This document shows positions 34,194-39,221 of a DNA stretch of 64,000 nucleotides, piece by piece. Source of the stretch: Alicyclobacillus acidocaldarius subsp. acidocaldarius Tc-4-1 (GTDB taxonomy: Bacteria; Bacillota; Bacilli; Alicyclobacillales; Alicyclobacillaceae); contig NC_017167.1 of the NCBI RefSeq assembly GCF_000219875.1, forward strand, positions 1,158,765-1,222,764, read 5' to 3'. The stretch's first letter is position 1; every line of letters begins with the position of its first letter. The notes under the pieces are model-generated. The model did no database searches. It was not told the origin of the DNA and saw nothing but the letters and a program-made list of their open reading frames with translations. The position numbers were made by a program, and so were the translations under genes.

Positions 34194-35144
34194 ATGCAAG
34201 ACGATCCGTTGGTGAACATCCTGATGGAGCAAGGGGTGAAGGTGATCCGGGGCGAACCGATGAAGCGGCATACGACGTGGCGGATCGGCGGACCTGCGGA
34301 TTACTTTGTCGAGCCGGACTCGGTGGACGCCCTGCGCGCGTGCGTTTGCGCCGCGCGAGACCACGGCCTACCTATCACCGTCATCGGCCGCGGCTCCAAC
34401 ACCCTGGTGTTGGACGGCGGAATTCGCGGCCTCGTCATCAAGCTGCACGACGCCTTCGCTTCGTGCGACGTGAGAGAGGACGAGTGCGCGGTCTACGCAA
34501 TGGCGGGCCGTTCGTACGTCGCGCTGGCGAATTTGGCCATCCGCCACGGTCTCTCAGGCCTCGAATTTGCGACCGGCATTCCCGGGTCCGTCGGCGGCGC
34601 GGTCATGATGAACGCAGGCGCGTACGGCCGCGAGACATGCGAGGTGCTCGCGTGGGCCGAGGTGATGGACGAGACCGGAGCCATCGCGCGGCTTTCGAAC
34701 GAAGAGCTGCGCTTTGGCTACCGCTACAGCGTGCTCAAGGATCGCTTCGGGATTGTGACACGGGCCAAGTTTCAGCTGGAGCCAGGCAATCGCGACGAGA
34801 TGCGGCGCCTCGTTCGCGAATGGTCCCAGCGGCGCATTGCGACTCAGCCACTCAGCTTTCCGAACTGCGGTTCCGTGTTTCGAAATCCCGAGGGCACCCA
34901 CGCGGCCCGACTTATCGAGGAAGCGGGGCTCAAGGGACTGCGCCGCGGCCAGGCGATGATCAGCGACAAGCACGCGAACTTCATCATCAACCTGGGGAAC
35001 GCTTCGGCGAGCGATGTGCTGTGGCTGATTCGGCACGCGCAGTCGGTGGTTCGAGAGCGGTTCGGCATCGCCCTCGAAACCGAGGTCCGCGTGCTTGGCG
35101 AACCCTTGTCGGGAGGTGCGGACGATGGAATTGCTGCGGATTGA
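34194..35144 (+). CDS. murB: UDP-N-acetylenolpyruvoylglucosamine reductase
   Basis: A 316-residue FAD enzyme, type II MurB as in Firmicutes. Motifs: HTTWRIGGPADYF, GRGSNTLV, GIPGSVGGAVMMNAGAYG and the catalytic serine in NCGSVFRNP. It reduces the enolpyruvyl product of MurA. ATG 34194 has GGAGG upstream; a GTG at 34170 is in frame. Its end overlaps the start of murA by 20 bp, so its partner enzyme is the interrupted gene next door. Confidence 0.95.
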   Translation: MQDDPLVNILMEQGVKVIRGEPMKRHTTWRIGGPADYFVEPDSVDALRACVCAARDHGLPITVIGRGSNTLVLDGGIRGLVIKLHDAFASCDVREDECAVYAMAGRSYVALANLAIRHGLSGLEFATGIPGSVGGAVMMNAGAYGRETCEVLAWAEVMDETGAIARLSNEELRFGYRYSVLKDRFGIVTRAKFQLEPGNRDEMRRLVREWSQRRIATQPLSFPNCGSVFRNPEGTHAARLIEEAGLKGLRRGQAMISDKHANFIINLGNASASDVLWLIRHAQSVVRERFGIALETEVRVLGEPLSGGADDGIAAD

Positions 35145-35439
35145 GGGCGGCGTACCGCTGACCGGCGAAGTGCGGGTGGCCGGCGCGAAGAACGCGGCCC
35201 TTCCCATCCTCGCCGCCACTGTCATGGTGGCAGGTCGTTCCGTGATCAAAAACGTCCCCGATCTCGAGGATGTCCGCGTCATGTTGGAAATCCTGAAGAG
35301 TCTCGGTGCAAAGGTGTCCATGTCGGCCGGAACGGTGACGGTCGACGCCAGCACGCTCTCTTCGACGCAGGTTCCTTCACACCTCATGCAGAAGATGAGG
35401 TCCCCCATGAGGCGCGAATTGCTCATCGCGACCGCCTGA
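35125..35439 (+). pseudogene. murA: murA 5' part, interrupted by the integrated element
   Basis: The first 92 codons are normal MurA (MELLRIEGGVPLTGEVRVAGAKNAALPILAA, with the catalytic-region KN pair) ending MQKMR at the insertion point, 35400/35401. The remaining codons (SPMRRELLIATA) are read from the element and stop at 35439. ATG 35125 has GGGAGG upstream. MurA transfers enolpyruvate to UDP-GlcNAc, the first committed step of peptidoglycan synthesis. The missing 325 residues, including the active-site cysteine, lie at 38244-39221. The gene is intact only if the element is excised. Confidence 0.93.
35390..35416. other. attL of the murA element
   Basis: Left junction: half of the chromosomal dyad (AGAAGATG, 35390-35397), then AGG, the crossover dinucleotide TC at 35401-35402, then the element half-site CCCCATG (35403-35409), AGG and CGCG. 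See attR for the matching halves. Confidence 0.75.
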
Positions 35440-35495
35440 CGAAATCACCGTGGGTGTCACGCCCGATGCACGCCGAGCTGGTCACATCTCCGTGG

Positions 35496-35501
35496 TATAA
35501 T
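35496..35501 (+). promoter_or_regulatory. Extended -10 promoter of the element-borne flavoprotein gene
   Basis: TGGTATAAT gives a consensus -10 with a TGN extension about 50 bp before the ATG. No good -35 is present. The element therefore brings its own promoter for its first gene. Confidence 0.45.
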
Positions 35502-35551
35502 GACGGAGACCAGAGATTCACAGATGGAGATTTCCGCTAGGAGCGAGGGCC

Positions 35552-36541
35552 ATGTTCGAAGCGTGTGTCATTGGTGCCGGCCCGTGTGGCTTGGCTGTGT
35601 CGGTCGAGCTGAAGCGGCGCGGCATTTCCCACGTCGTGATCGAGAAATCCTGCATCGTGTCGACCATCTACCGTTTCCCCACGCAAATGGTGTTCAACTC
35701 CACACCTGAACGCCTCGAGATTGGCGATATCCCGTTTTACACCGAACGGGCCAAACCCACGCGGATGGAGGCGCTGACGTACTACCGGACTGTCGTTCAG
35801 CGGCTTGAGCTGCCGGTCCGCCAGTACGAAGAGGTGACAGCCGTCGAGCGGGACGGAAGCGGAGGATTTCGCATCCACTCGCGCACCCTTTCCGGGAGGC
35901 CGCTTGTGACGGAAACGAGAGCCGTGGTGGTGGCCACGGGTTACTTCGATCATCCCAACATGCTCGGCGTGCCCGGCGAAAACCTTCCCCATGTCACGCA
36001 CTACTATCGGGACGCTCATCCCTATTACGGGCAGCGCGTGGTCATCATCGGTGGCACCAACTCCGCGGCTGAGGCCGCCATCGATCTGCACCGGGTCGGC
36101 GCGTGCGTCACGCTCGTCCATCGGGGCCCGGCCATGTCCGACAAAATCAAGCCGTGGGTCAAGCCCGATATCCAGAGCCTCCTTGACAAACGGGCGATTG
36201 CCTTCCACTTTCGCTCGCGCGTCACCGAGATCTGCGCGGATCACGTTCGCGTCGAGACGCCCGAGGGTCGGCTCGACATTCCGTGCGATCACGTCCTGGC
36301 GCTTACGGGTTACCACCCGGATACTTCGTTTCTCGAAAAGCTTGGTATTCAATTCGATCCAGAGACGGGAATCCCGGCGCACGACGAGGCGACCTATGAA
36401 ACCAACGTGCCAGGCATCTACGTGGCGGGCGTGGTGGTGTCCGGATTTGACGCCAACCGCATCTTCATCGAAAATGGCCGCCTCCAAGCTCCCCGCATTG
36501 CCGATGCCATCGCCTCCAGGATGACCGCTCGCGTCGGCTAG
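35552..36541 (+). CDS. ypdA: YpdA/Bdr-like bacillithiol disulfide reductase
   Basis: A 329-residue flavoprotein. N-terminal FAD motif VIGAGPCGLAVSVELKRRG with the CG pair typical of YpdA, then IVSTIYRFPTQMVFNSTPERLEIGD (YpdA signature region), and an NADPH motif IIGGTNSAAEAAIDLHR near residue 165, where YpdA usually has GGGNSA. C-terminal VAGVVVSGFDANRIFIENGR. YpdA reduces bacillithiol disulfide using NADPH. It is cargo inside the murA element, which is unusual for a redox housekeeping enzyme. ATG start with AGGAGCGAGGG upstream. Confidence 0.88.
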   Translation: MFEACVIGAGPCGLAVSVELKRRGISHVVIEKSCIVSTIYRFPTQMVFNSTPERLEIGDIPFYTERAKPTRMEALTYYRTVVQRLELPVRQYEEVTAVERDGSGGFRIHSRTLSGRPLVTETRAVVVATGYFDHPNMLGVPGENLPHVTHYYRDAHPYYGQRVVIIGGTNSAAEAAIDLHRVGACVTLVHRGPAMSDKIKPWVKPDIQSLLDKRAIAFHFRSRVTEICADHVRVETPEGRLDIPCDHVLALTGYHPDTSFLEKLGIQFDPETGIPAHDEATYETNVPGIYVAGVVVSGFDANRIFIENGRLQAPRIADAIASRMTARVG

Positions 36542-36565
36542 CCTCGTCCGGCAAGATGGTCAAAC

Positions 36566-36592
36566 CCTCCCGCATATCGGTCTGTCGGGAGG
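36566..36592 (+). promoter_or_regulatory. Hairpin covering the ribosome site of the 52-residue gene
   Basis: CCTCCCG (36566-36572) pairs with CGGGAGG (36586-36592), which contains the ribosome binding sequence of the gene starting at 36601. The structure could block translation of this gene and of the coupled recombinase, or act as a weak terminator after ypdA. It has no T-run. Confidence 0.4.
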
Positions 36593-36600
36593 CGATTGAG

Positions 36601-36759
36601 ATGCGAATTCGCGCCGTCTACGTCTGGGACGCAAAGCGTGAGGCACTGGTACCTGAGCGCGAGATGGAAGCGCAGGTGGCGCATCGCGTGATGGCCGTCG
36701 CCCGTCCCCTTTTGGAGCGCATGCTCGCGCACCGCGGCAGGCGGGTGAACGAGTCGTGA
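36601..36759 (+). CDS. 52-residue protein coupled to the recombinase (candidate directionality factor)
   Basis: A short protein starting MRIRAVYVWDAKREALVPER, with a helical, charged second half ending in HRGRRVNES. GGGAGG is 8 bases before the ATG. Its stop overlaps the GTG start of the serine recombinase (GTGA), a strong sign of translational coupling. Small proteins encoded beside large serine integrases can be recombination directionality factors that permit excision. No sequence family was recognised, so this role is inference. Confidence 0.6.
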   Translation: MRIRAVYVWDAKREALVPEREMEAQVAHRVMAVARPLLERMLAHRGRRVNES

Positions 36760-38213
36760 CCGAGCGGCACCTGGCGCTCTACGTGCGGGTTTCGACGGAG
36801 GAGCAGGCCATATCCGGTCACAGCTTGAGGGAGCAAGAGGAGCAGCTCGTGGAATATGCTCGCTCGCACGGGTTTTCCAGGTACGAACTGTATTGCGACG
36901 ACGGGTATTCCGGCAAGTCCTTGAACCGTCCGGAGATGGAGCGCTTGCGCGCCAACATCCGGGCGGGATGCGTGCTCGGCGTGGTGACCACGCGCATTGA
37001 TCGGCTGACGCGGAGCGTCGCGGACTTCGCGCGCCTTGTCGACGAGATGAACCTGCATGGGGTTTTTTACCGCTCCACCAGGCAGAATTTCGAGATCTCG
37101 ACGGCCATGGGGCGATTGGTGGCGCAGATGTTGTCCGTGATCGCCGAGTTCGAGCGGGAGATGATCGCGGAGCGCGTGCACGAAAATCTGCTGGCGATGG
37201 CCCAGCGCGGCGAGCTCGCCACGAAGCCGCCGTTCGGTTATCGGCTGGTCAACGGTCGCTTGACGCCGGATCCGCGCGAGGCCCGATGGGTGCGCGAGGG
37301 GGCGCGCCTTCTGTTGACGGGGGCGAGCCCGAGGGACGTCGCCATGGAGTTCAACGCCCTCGGCGTGCGGACGAAGACGGGGCGGCTGTGGACGGATCGC
37401 ACGGTCCGGACGCTCTTTTCCAACCCGGCGCTGGCCGGTGTCTCCGTGTGGAACCGGCGCAAGACGCAAGGCAACCGGCGAACCGAGCGCGAGCCTGCCG
37501 AGTGGGTGTGCGTTGAAGGAGCGCACGAGGCGATTTTGAGCCCTGAGGAATTCGAAGTCCTGCGCAACATCCTCAAGCGGCGCCATGCGTTGTCGCCGCG
37601 ATCGCAGGGTTCGAAGCGACCGCTCGCTGGCATCGCGCGGTGCGGCTTCTGTGGAAGCGCCATGTACGCAGGCTGGCAGGTGACCCAACGGGACCATGAG
37701 CGCGAAAAGAGGCCCATCTATCGCTGCGGGCGATACGTCACGGGTGGGGGGTGCACGCCCAATCAGGTGGACGCCAGAGCGCTGGAGACGCTGGTCGTGG
37801 AAGAACTCCTTCGGCGCGTCCGGCCTGACCTCGAAGCGATGGCCTCCGCTTATCAGGCGGATGCAGCGTCGAACGAGTTGCGCACGGTTCGGCGGAAGCG
37901 CCGCGTCGCCGTGGCACGCCTGAGCAGGCTCGCGGAGGCCTACGCGTCCGGTGTCGTGTCAGAGGAGGTGTTTGTCCGCGAGCAGGCTCGCCTTCTGCGC
38001 GCGCTTGAGGTATGTCGGGAGGCGGAGGCGCAATCGGCTGACCTATCGACTCCCGAGGGGTGGGAAGCATGGGTGAGCGCACTGTGCGCACGATTGGCTG
38101 ACGATCCCCATCTGGAGCGCGCGCTGATCCTCTCCGTCGTGCGAGAGGTGCGCGTGTTTCGCCCAAAGCGGTCTCGCGAGGTGGACGTCGATCTCGTCCT
38201 ATTCCTCGAGTGA
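36756..38213 (+). CDS. Large serine recombinase (site-specific integrase/excisionase)
   Basis: A 485-residue recombinase. Residues 5-150 form the resolvase catalytic domain with nucleophile Ser13 in LYVRVSTEEQ and the arginine-containing RIDRLTRS. A recombinase domain follows (PPFGYRLVNG to about 290), then a zinc ribbon (CGFCG and C..GGC, residues 295-335) and a coiled-coil tail (365-440). The start region resembles SpoIVCA, the recombinase that excises skin from sigK. The gene ends 30 bp from the right border, as expected for the element's own recombinase. Confidence 0.95.
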   Translation: MTERHLALYVRVSTEEQAISGHSLREQEEQLVEYARSHGFSRYELYCDDGYSGKSLNRPEMERLRANIRAGCVLGVVTTRIDRLTRSVADFARLVDEMNLHGVFYRSTRQNFEISTAMGRLVAQMLSVIAEFEREMIAERVHENLLAMAQRGELATKPPFGYRLVNGRLTPDPREARWVREGARLLLTGASPRDVAMEFNALGVRTKTGRLWTDRTVRTLFSNPALAGVSVWNRRKTQGNRRTEREPAEWVCVEGAHEAILSPEEFEVLRNILKRRHALSPRSQGSKRPLAGIARCGFCGSAMYAGWQVTQRDHEREKRPIYRCGRYVTGGGCTPNQVDARALETLVVEELLRRVRPDLEAMASAYQADAASNELRTVRRKRRVAVARLSRLAEAYASGVVSEEVFVREQARLLRALEVCREAEAQSADLSTPEGWEAWVSALCARLADDPHLERALILSVVREVRVFRPKRSREVDVDLVLFLE

Positions 38214-38229
38214 CGTCAGGAACATCTAT

Positions 38230-38256
38230 CGCGGAGCATGGGGTCTTCCATCTTCT
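38230..38256. other. attR of the murA element
   Basis: Right junction: the element half-site CGCG, GAG and CATGGGG (38237-38243), the dinucleotide TC at 38244-38245, then TTC and the chromosomal half CATCTTCT (38249-38256). Combined with attL, attB is AGAAGATG-AGG-TC-TTC-CATCTTCT (8-bp perfect arms) and attP is CATGGGG-TC-CCCCATG flanked by CGCG on both sides. Confidence 0.75.
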
Positions 38257-39221
38257 TGATGGGGCCCCTCATGGCGCGATGCGGTGAAGTGACCGTGTCC
38301 AAGCCGGGCGGGTGTGTCATTGGCCAGCGGCCCATTGATTTTCATCTTCGAGGACTCAGGGCGCTTGGGGCGCGGATTGAGGAATCCCATGGGCTGATTC
38401 GTTGTCAAGCTAAGCGCCTCGTCGGCACCCACATCGTGCTCGATTTTCCGTCGGTCGGCGCGACCGAGAACCTGCTGATGGCGGCGGTGTTGGCGGATGG
38501 CACCACGGTGATTGAAAACGCGGCGCGTGAGCCGGAAGTGGAGGACCTGGCGAACTTCTTGAAGGCCGCAGGCGCGGAGATCCACGGGGCCGGATCGGCG
38601 CGCATTGAGGTGCGCGGGCGGTCGAAGCTTAGAGAGGCGTCGTACACGGTCATCCCGGACCGCATCGTCGCGGGCACGGTGATGGCCATGGTAGCCGCGG
38701 CGGGCGGCGAGGTGCGGCTTGTGGGTGCTCGGGCGGATCACCTGGGGGTTGTGCTTCAGAAACTGCGAGATGCAGGTATTCGCGCCGAGGTCGAACATGA
38801 TATAATCACTATTATCTGTGAGGAGACCCCATCTCCCATTGACATCCGCACTGCGCCTTACCCAGGGTTTCCGACGGACCTTCAGGCGCCGTTTATGGCG
38901 TTTTTGACCATAGCCAGAGGCACGAGCATTGTGCAGGAAAGCGTGTTTGAAGCCCGTTTCAAGCACGTCGACGAATTGGTCCGCATGGGCGCCAACGTGT
39001 CGGTCGATCTGCGCACGGCCATCGTGCGAGGAGTGCCGCACTTGTCCGGCGCGCGTGTGACGGCGGCGGATCTCCGCGGTGGTGCGGCGCTCGTCGTGGC
39101 CGGCCTCGCGGCCCAGGGTGTGACCGAGGTCGAAGGACTCCAGCATATCGACCGCGGCTATGAGGACATGGCTGCGCTGCTTCGAATGCTCGGGGCACGC
39201 GCGTCGCGTACGAAGCAGTGA
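38238..39221 (+). pseudogene. murA: murA 3' part (residues 93-417 of the restored protein)
   Basis: Reading from TC at 38244 gives SSIFLMGPLMARCGEVTVSK, then the catalytic loop PGGCVIGQRPIDFH, whose cysteine attacks phosphoenolpyruvate and is the fosfomycin target, and the rest of the MurA fold to ARASRTKQ. An ATG at 38238 lies in the element, but no properly spaced ribosome site precedes it. Domain 1 of MurA would be split, so this part is unlikely to act alone. It is intact in sequence, with no decay, which favours a reversible interruption. Confidence 0.93.

Follow-up and report, generated by a model that had tools for sequence, protein, structure and literature searches.

A three-gene element that splits murA in Alicyclobacillus encodes a large serine recombinase and a conserved small partner protein, a candidate directionality factor

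To our knowledge, the gene-splitting elements of spore formers interrupt sporulation genes, and they are phages or islands of larger size; murA is not known as a sporulation-specific gene. XisF, a serine recombinase with a role in heterocysts, excises the fdxN element from the gene that this element splits. In the gin element, which lies in gerE of Bacillus cereus, GirC is accompanied by GirX, a protein of 42 amino acids that is described as lacking a conserved motif, and the serine recombinase and GirX restore the split reading frame (PMC5595907). The skin element in sigK of Clostridioides difficile features CD1231 and CD1234, a directionality factor of 72 amino acids, and its small gene is under the control of SigE and SpoIIID (PMC5025042). 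SPbeta is reported to split spsM (PMC4191935), and the SPbeta integrase fused to its directionality factor is available as a solved structure (9dxd and 9dxh; PMC12412911). The Alicyclobacillus prophage MMB025 splits sigK and features a serine recombinase (PMC13141910). Our literature search, which was done partly by title and covered few subscription journals, found no murA or ypdA element of this kind.

The locus described here is a tiny, old, gene-splitting element of the skin and gin kind that lies in murA, and it was not seen in the earlier note on this DNA, which dealt with the small gene, the hairpin upstream of it and the recombinase. The window, that is the whole stretch of DNA that was analyzed, consists of 64,000 nucleotides from Alicyclobacillus acidocaldarius subsp. 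acidocaldarius Tc-4-1. In the window, the murA gene of the cell-wall and division cluster is split by a 2843-bp element with TC cores at 35401 and 38244. The gene order is murB, the start of murA (35125), then, within the element, ypdA, a small 52-codon gene and the recombinase gene, and finally the rest of murA (38238) and divIB. The features of the locus are the following.

35125–35439, + strand: murA 5' part, which ends at the core at 35401 and runs on as an unconserved tail to a stop codon within the element (TIGR01072 E 1.3e-27, profile 1–96)
35381–35422, + strand: attL, with inferred central dinucleotide TC at 35401–35402 (from comparison with attR, uninterrupted murA and the A. sacchari attP junction)
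35493–35501, + strand: extended -10 promoter-like motif TGGTATAAT, 59 nt before the ypdA ATG (a motif of this kind in 8 of 8 ypdA-type elements)
35552–36541, + strand: ypdA, of the bacillithiol disulfide reductase family, with no other copy in the genome (TIGR04018 448 bits, cut-off 339.9)
36546–36576, + strand: bipartite promoter-like motif GTCCGG-N21-CATA, 5' of the small gene (same spacing in 10 of 10 elements)
36566–36592, + strand: hairpin CCTCCCG/CGGGAGG, with its 3' arm over the Shine-Dalgarno sequence of the small gene (from pairing and conservation)
36601–36759, + strand: 52-residue protein, candidate recombination directionality factor (predicted beta hairpin and long helix)
36756–38213, + strand: large serine recombinase of 485 amino acids (PF00239, PF07508 and PF13408; 9dxh E 1.6e-25)
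38224–38265, + strand: attR, with inferred central dinucleotide TC at 38244–38245 (from att-site comparison)
38238–39221, + strand: murA 3' part (TIGR01072 424 bits, profile 94–414)

The murA element resembles gin in that a non-phage element splits a host reading frame, encodes a serine recombinase and a small orphan partner, and features a short core and an inverted-repeat att site. It differs from gin in having three genes in 2.84 kb, whereas gin comprises 31 genes, has three recombinases and interrupts a sporulation regulator. Excision of the murA element, unlike that of gin, is predicted from the sequence. The likeness to skin is a large serine recombinase with a small orphan partner gene in a gene-splitting element; unlike in skin, the small gene overlaps the recombinase gene, and the patterns tried did not find a SigE-type promoter. 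SPbeta is a phage, unlike the murA element, and its directionality factor has no sequence or fold match to the small protein. MMB025 comes from the same genus and is gene-splitting like the murA element, but it is an infectious phage in another gene.

Joining the murA flanks across the cores gives a MurA frame of 417–419 residues in all eight ypdA-type elements, so that on paper excision restores the host reading frame in frame. The joined MurA of the window scores 532.6 bits on the murA model TIGR01072 over profile 1–414 (cut-off 392.7). The murA frame reads AAG ATG AGG TCC CCC at the left border and ATG GGG TCT TCC ATC TTC at the right border. The two ends have only a few bases in common, and we infer the exact crossover point to be at TC from sequence comparison; the length of 2843 bp assumes the shared TC as the center. 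Quasi-palindromes around TC match at 9–13 of 20 positions in attB and 12–14 of 20 in attP in one group of relatives (clade A, defined below), and at 10–11 of 20 and 9–11 of 20, respectively, in a second group (clade B), all as raw counts. The tails that the murA 5' part gains inside the element differ between species. The base composition of the element resembles that of its surroundings. The genes recognized between the cores are only ypdA, the small gene and the recombinase gene, and phage structural genes are not among them.

The recombinase features Resolvase, Recombinase and zinc-ribbon domains in that order, with scores of 120.9 (PF00239), 74 (PF07508) and 48.1 bits (PF13408) that are all above the cut-off. 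Ser13, which we take to be the catalytic serine, and Cys296, Cys299, Cys324 and Cys333, presumably the cysteines of the zinc ribbon, are invariant among nine aligned sequences. The best long solved relative is the SPbeta integrase chain 9dxh (E 1.6e-25). The best NCBIfam score is that of XisF, NF041201 (E 3.2e-47, 161.5 bits). XisF was rejected as the identity of the protein, since this score lies below the equivalog cut-off of 375 bits; the resemblance to XisF is that both are recombinases of an element in a split gene. Additionally, viral contigs contain 59 relatives with 25–39% identity in the best segment.

The element with ypdA, the small gene and the recombinase gene is located at the same murA codon in 8 of the 15 genomes of the genus. 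These eight form clade A (G000, G002, G008, G010 and G014) and clade B (G004, G009 and G011), in which G008 is A. fructus, G010 is A. mali and G011 is A. sacchari. In a ninth genome of the genus, G001, the element at this place in murA is larger: its recombinase gene is preceded by genes for a GGDEF protein and a chemotaxis-type protein and followed by ypdA, and short TCCGCC/TCCGCT repeats form a tract 5' of the recombinase gene. The murA gene is unbroken in G003, G005, G006, G007 and G013. Two contigs of G012 stop at the att core, one on either side, and a search of the assembly did not find the element; since the right-hand contig begins with bases that read like attR, the element may be present though unassembled. 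In another genus, the murA gene of G029 is interrupted at the same codon by roughly 9 kb. In place of ypdA, the G029 element encodes a P-type ATPase of 1530 residues that has a heavy-metal domain, and no ypdA was found in the 18 kb examined. A search of the family gave a match in 10 of 41 genomes at E 1e-100 or better, the tenth being G029, and a search of the order added no further genome (10 of 59 at 1e-110). A Brevibacillus contig encodes a recombinase with 40% identity without a match to murA, ypdA or the small gene.

Clades A and B form one group in the trees of MurA (97/95), the recombinase (99/97) and YpdA (100/98), which were drawn with midpoint roots. This grouping in all three trees fits one old insertion inherited by both clades, and from the sequences the element appears to have been inherited since the two clades of the genus split. 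The recombinases of the two clades are 54% alike.

The small gene runs from ATG 36601 to TGA 36759 and consists of 52 codons. The earlier note described the small protein as coupled to the recombinase, with a GTGA overlap, and this is supported: the 4-base overlap with the recombinase start (GTG 36756) is present in the sequence, and next to related recombinases the small gene is kept directly 5' of the recombinase gene in all ten elements with this recombinase subfamily, whatever their cargo. It is located 3' of ypdA in clades A and B, while in G001 ypdA lies 3' of the recombinase gene and in G029 no ypdA was found. The small gene thus keeps its place where ypdA is moved or not found, which indicates that it goes with the recombinase and not with the cargo. 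It overlaps a recombinase start codon in eight of the ten elements, although in G008 this start is an alternative GTG, and in G001 and G029 it ends before the first start codon of the recombinase frame.

The variable columns of the small gene fall on codon positions 1, 2 and 3 in numbers of 19, 9 and 35 in clade A (five sequences) and 3, 1 and 15 in clade B (three sequences). The in-frame similarity of the small proteins of G010 and G011, a pair across the clades with 41 codons, was reached by none of 5000 residue shuffles. The codon-position patterns and the similarity across clades indicate that the gene codes for a protein. In searches of 31202 fragments, the clade B profile found the G001 open reading frame at E 8e-4 and clade A at 0.01–0.9, and the clade A profile found clade B at 0.006–0.011 and did not find the G001 frame. 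A profile from all members but G001 gave only E 5.9 for the G001 frame, and the full profile missed the G029 frame at E 1, so that the assignment of the latter rests on position, motif and pattern. A longer product of 67 codons from the in-frame ATG 36556 was considered and rejected. The short 52-codon product is the conserved one, because G010 features a stop between the upstream ATG and the small frame, G008 features a one-base deletion there, and in clade B no start codon lies farther upstream of the small-gene start than two codons. The 52-residue protein is a real and conserved partner of the recombinase.

The hairpin upstream of the small gene features arms at 36566–36572 (CCTCCCG) and 36586–36592 (CGGGAGG) with a loop of 13 nt, and its 3' arm contains GGGAGG, 8 nt 5' of ATG 36601. 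Some Watson-Crick stem of at least 7 bp was obtained in 88 of 2000 dinucleotide shuffles of the 59-nt stretch, and the Shine-Dalgarno sequence lies within such a stem in 2 of the 178 Shine-Dalgarno-plus-start contexts of the window. The folding of the 119-nt stretch as a whole is unremarkable (z -0.48). The hairpin is credible because it is conserved across elements, with fold z values of -1.5 to -2.9 in the eight elements of the ypdA type, where a fraction of 0.004 to 0.088 of the shuffles reaches values that low. The values are -0.05 and -0.55 in G001 and G029. The claim of the earlier note that a hairpin hides the ribosome site of the small gene thus stands for the eight ypdA-type elements, but not for G001, where it is absent, and at best weakly for G029.

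The GTCCGG-N21-CATA motif was spotted by reading the sequences, and the search pattern was written afterwards. Its spacing is identical in all ten elements, with the variant GTTCGG in G014, while the distance from CATA to the start codon varies from 27 to 40 nt. A related pattern has two matches in the whole genome, one of which is the motif 5' of the small gene. The CATA box sits in the loop of the hairpin, and the 5' arm is beside the motif. It was suggested in the earlier note that the hairpin keeps both the small gene and the recombinase quiet; this is plausible and needs refining, since the 5' arm adjoins a conserved promoter-like motif. The arrangement suggests that the hairpin may silence RNA that reads through from ypdA, and this is its likelier use, while RNA from the inner site would lack the 5' arm. 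In model RNA that starts 10 nt after CATA, the Shine-Dalgarno sequence is freer in eight of the ten sequences and less free in G004 and G009. Upstream of ypdA, a promoter-like motif is found 58–60 nt 5' of the gene in all eight ypdA-type elements, which reads TGGTATAAT in five, TGATATAAT in two and TGGTATCAT in one.

A comparable arrangement is found in IS10 and IS50, in which the transposase is protected from outside transcription by a read-through hairpin whose 5' arm lies before the inner transcription start and which hides the ribosome site. The likeness is the read-through hairpin; here it would control the directionality factor and recombinase of an integrative element. Our literature search on the IS10 read-through hairpin found no passage. 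It is possible, though doubtful, that the bipartite motif and the hairpin are instead one RNA element, a leader that binds a protein or a metabolite, rather than a promoter and a read-through trap. The location of CATA within the loop and the conservation of nucleotides between the clades would agree with such a leader, but the fixed 21-nt spacing, the variable downstream length and the presence of the motif without a hairpin in G001 fit recognition as DNA better. Additionally, a search of Rfam with 35400–36800 gave no match at the place of the hairpin and one sub-threshold match elsewhere, on the other strand.

A mother-cell (SigE) promoter 5' of the small gene was considered and is retained only as an idea: CATA fits the -10 box of the SigE consensus, but the GCATA -35 box is missing. 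In the genus, a CATA-like -10 box precedes spoIVA, spoIIIAA and the presumed spoIID, and inspection by eye showed the GCATA -35 box upstream of spoIVA, of the presumed spoIID and of those spoIIIAA genes for which the sequence inspected extended far enough. The genes spoIVA, spoIID and spoIIIAA are under the control of SigE, and spoIID was named here from gene order. Two exact two-box SigE-type patterns had no match in the window. With no GCATA box at the inner motif and no pattern match in the window, sporulation timing is without support here.

The best reading of the small protein, by analogy, is that of a directionality factor, as its size and setting are like those of GirX and CD1234. As is looked for in a directionality factor, its gene accompanies that of the integrase within one element, in 10 of 10 cases. 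A structural model from ten rows features a beta hairpin and a long helix (pLDDT 82), while the five-row model is poor (pLDDT 69.7). A fold search with the ten-row model in PDB and BFVD gave nothing at E 0.001 or better. Searches with the protein alone and as ten members against Pfam, NCBIfam, PHROGs and PDB sequences gave no credible match, and neither sequence nor fold matched a known directionality factor. It is unlikely, in our estimate, that the small protein is a regulator or translational leader of the recombinase, either as a repressor or as a reading frame that opens the recombinase start. Consistent with such a function are the overlap with the recombinase start in eight elements, the lack of a match to known directionality factors, and the weakest constraint among the genes compared (clade A mean dN/dS 0.331, ten pairs). 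However, the amino acids of the small protein are conserved between clades whose recombinases are 54% alike, beyond the needs of coupling alone, and in G001 and G029 the small gene stops before the first recombinase start codon. As a putative directionality factor, the small protein probably helps to excise the element and so to rebuild murA. The synonymous divergence of the small gene is below that of its neighbors in several clade A pairs (G000–G010, 0.31 versus 0.64–1.01), which hints at a further constraint at the nucleotide level.

The ypdA gene has no second copy in the genome, and other matches in the genome reach at most 37.1 bits. At E 1e-40, the eight ypdA-type genomes gave no second ypdA except for the tandem of G011, and in G003 and G013 ypdA is elsewhere in the genome. 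The bacillithiol gene bshC is present in all 15 genomes of the genus, which gives ypdA a partner pathway. G005, G006 and G007 have bshC and no ypdA match at E 1e-40, that is, bacillithiol synthesis without this reductase family, and ypdA is thus not indispensable.

Both parts of the split murA are under purifying selection. In clade A (ten pairs) the mean dN/dS is 0.057 for the murA 3' part and 0.086 for the 5' part, compared with 0.102 for murB, 0.101 for ypdA, 0.122 for the recombinase gene and 0.129 for divIB. In clade B (two pairs) the values are 0.064 and 0.124 for the 3' part, 0.115 and 0.105 for the 5' part, and 0.040 and 0.044 for murB, so that there murB is more constrained than the two murA parts. 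For the unbroken murA genes of other species the values are 0.088, 0.054 and 0.028, the last with saturated dS. Selection on both halves makes it probable that excision rebuilds murA. Another complete MurA, of 433 residues, is encoded beside the gene taken for spoIID, and each of the 15 genomes of the genus has a second MurA match whose open frame spans 437 residues or more; the split copy thus need not act all the time.

It is improbable that the element is no longer excised and that MurA is used as two separately made pieces or as the 3' piece alone. The conservation of both pieces and the ATG of the 3' part at 38238 would agree with this, but in seven of the eight ypdA-type elements no GGAG, GAGG or AGGA is located at a usable distance upstream of the 3' part. 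G000 has only a distant AGGA there, and in G000 and G010 a GGAG lies one base before the ATG, which is too close. Selection, together with the unconserved tail of the 5' piece and the lack of a well-placed ribosome site for the 3' part, is explained better by excision than by a two-piece enzyme, and the maintenance of the recombinase, the small gene and the att sites also argues against the latter. Furthermore, a scaffold of A. sacchari DSM 17974 features two identical 2805-bp copies of the element in tandem, with an attP junction between them; a stretch of N follows the second copy. If the join is not an assembly error, molecules with attP were sequenced in A. sacchari, whether from a true tandem or from circle reads. 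The contig ends of G012 are weaker evidence of movement of the same kind. The chromosome of the window features the integrated form only, and no attB form was seen in any element-bearing genome. Still less credible is a selfish remnant, in which the split murA would be inactive and the element retained solely for its only copy of ypdA: the second MurA in every genome of the genus and the lack of another ypdA copy would allow it, but the murA parts have dN/dS values far below 1 in both clades, and in clade A these lie below those of murB and divIB and resemble those of uninterrupted murA (0.03–0.09), although murB is lower in clade B.

Taken together, we consider it fairly probable that the locus is a three-gene integrative element in murA, that its small protein is the directionality factor, and that a switch between the hairpin and the inner promoter controls excision. 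A large serine recombinase would once have inserted the element into murA, and would recombine attL with attR across TC to give a 2.84-kb circle and an intact murA. The 52-residue protein would bind the recombinase and turn integration into excision. In most cells the element would stay in place, with ypdA transcribed from its own TGGTATAAT promoter, and the read-through RNA would fold the CCTCCCG/CGGGAGG hairpin, which would cover the small gene's ribosome site and, by way of the GTGA overlap, lower the recombinase as well. RNA begun at the inner GTCCGG-N21-CATA motif would lack the 5' arm and allow translation, and the timing of excision would follow the signal to which this putative promoter responds. 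The sequences themselves show the element and its borders, the in-frame repair of murA, the conserved pair of genes, the selection on both parts of murA and one attP junction in the assembly of a relative; the directionality role, the promoter, the read-through switch and the timing are proposals built on them.

The murA element has only three genes, lies in a peptidoglycan gene of the division cluster and carries a redox gene without another copy in the genome. The compact pair of recombinase and partner with its natural att sites is a possible tool, and the element offers a clean test of a partner protein that is silenced in read-through RNA. We suggest, tentatively and with low confidence, that the element may be a long-kept programmed DNA switch, in which the inner promoter and the directionality factor trigger one excision that rebuilds a second MurA and removes ypdA, the only bacillithiol reductase gene, from the chromosome. 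If this is true, the trade of ypdA for murA would suit a cell that will no longer divide, such as the mother cell, and the hairpin would stop transcription of ypdA in growing cells from triggering excision.
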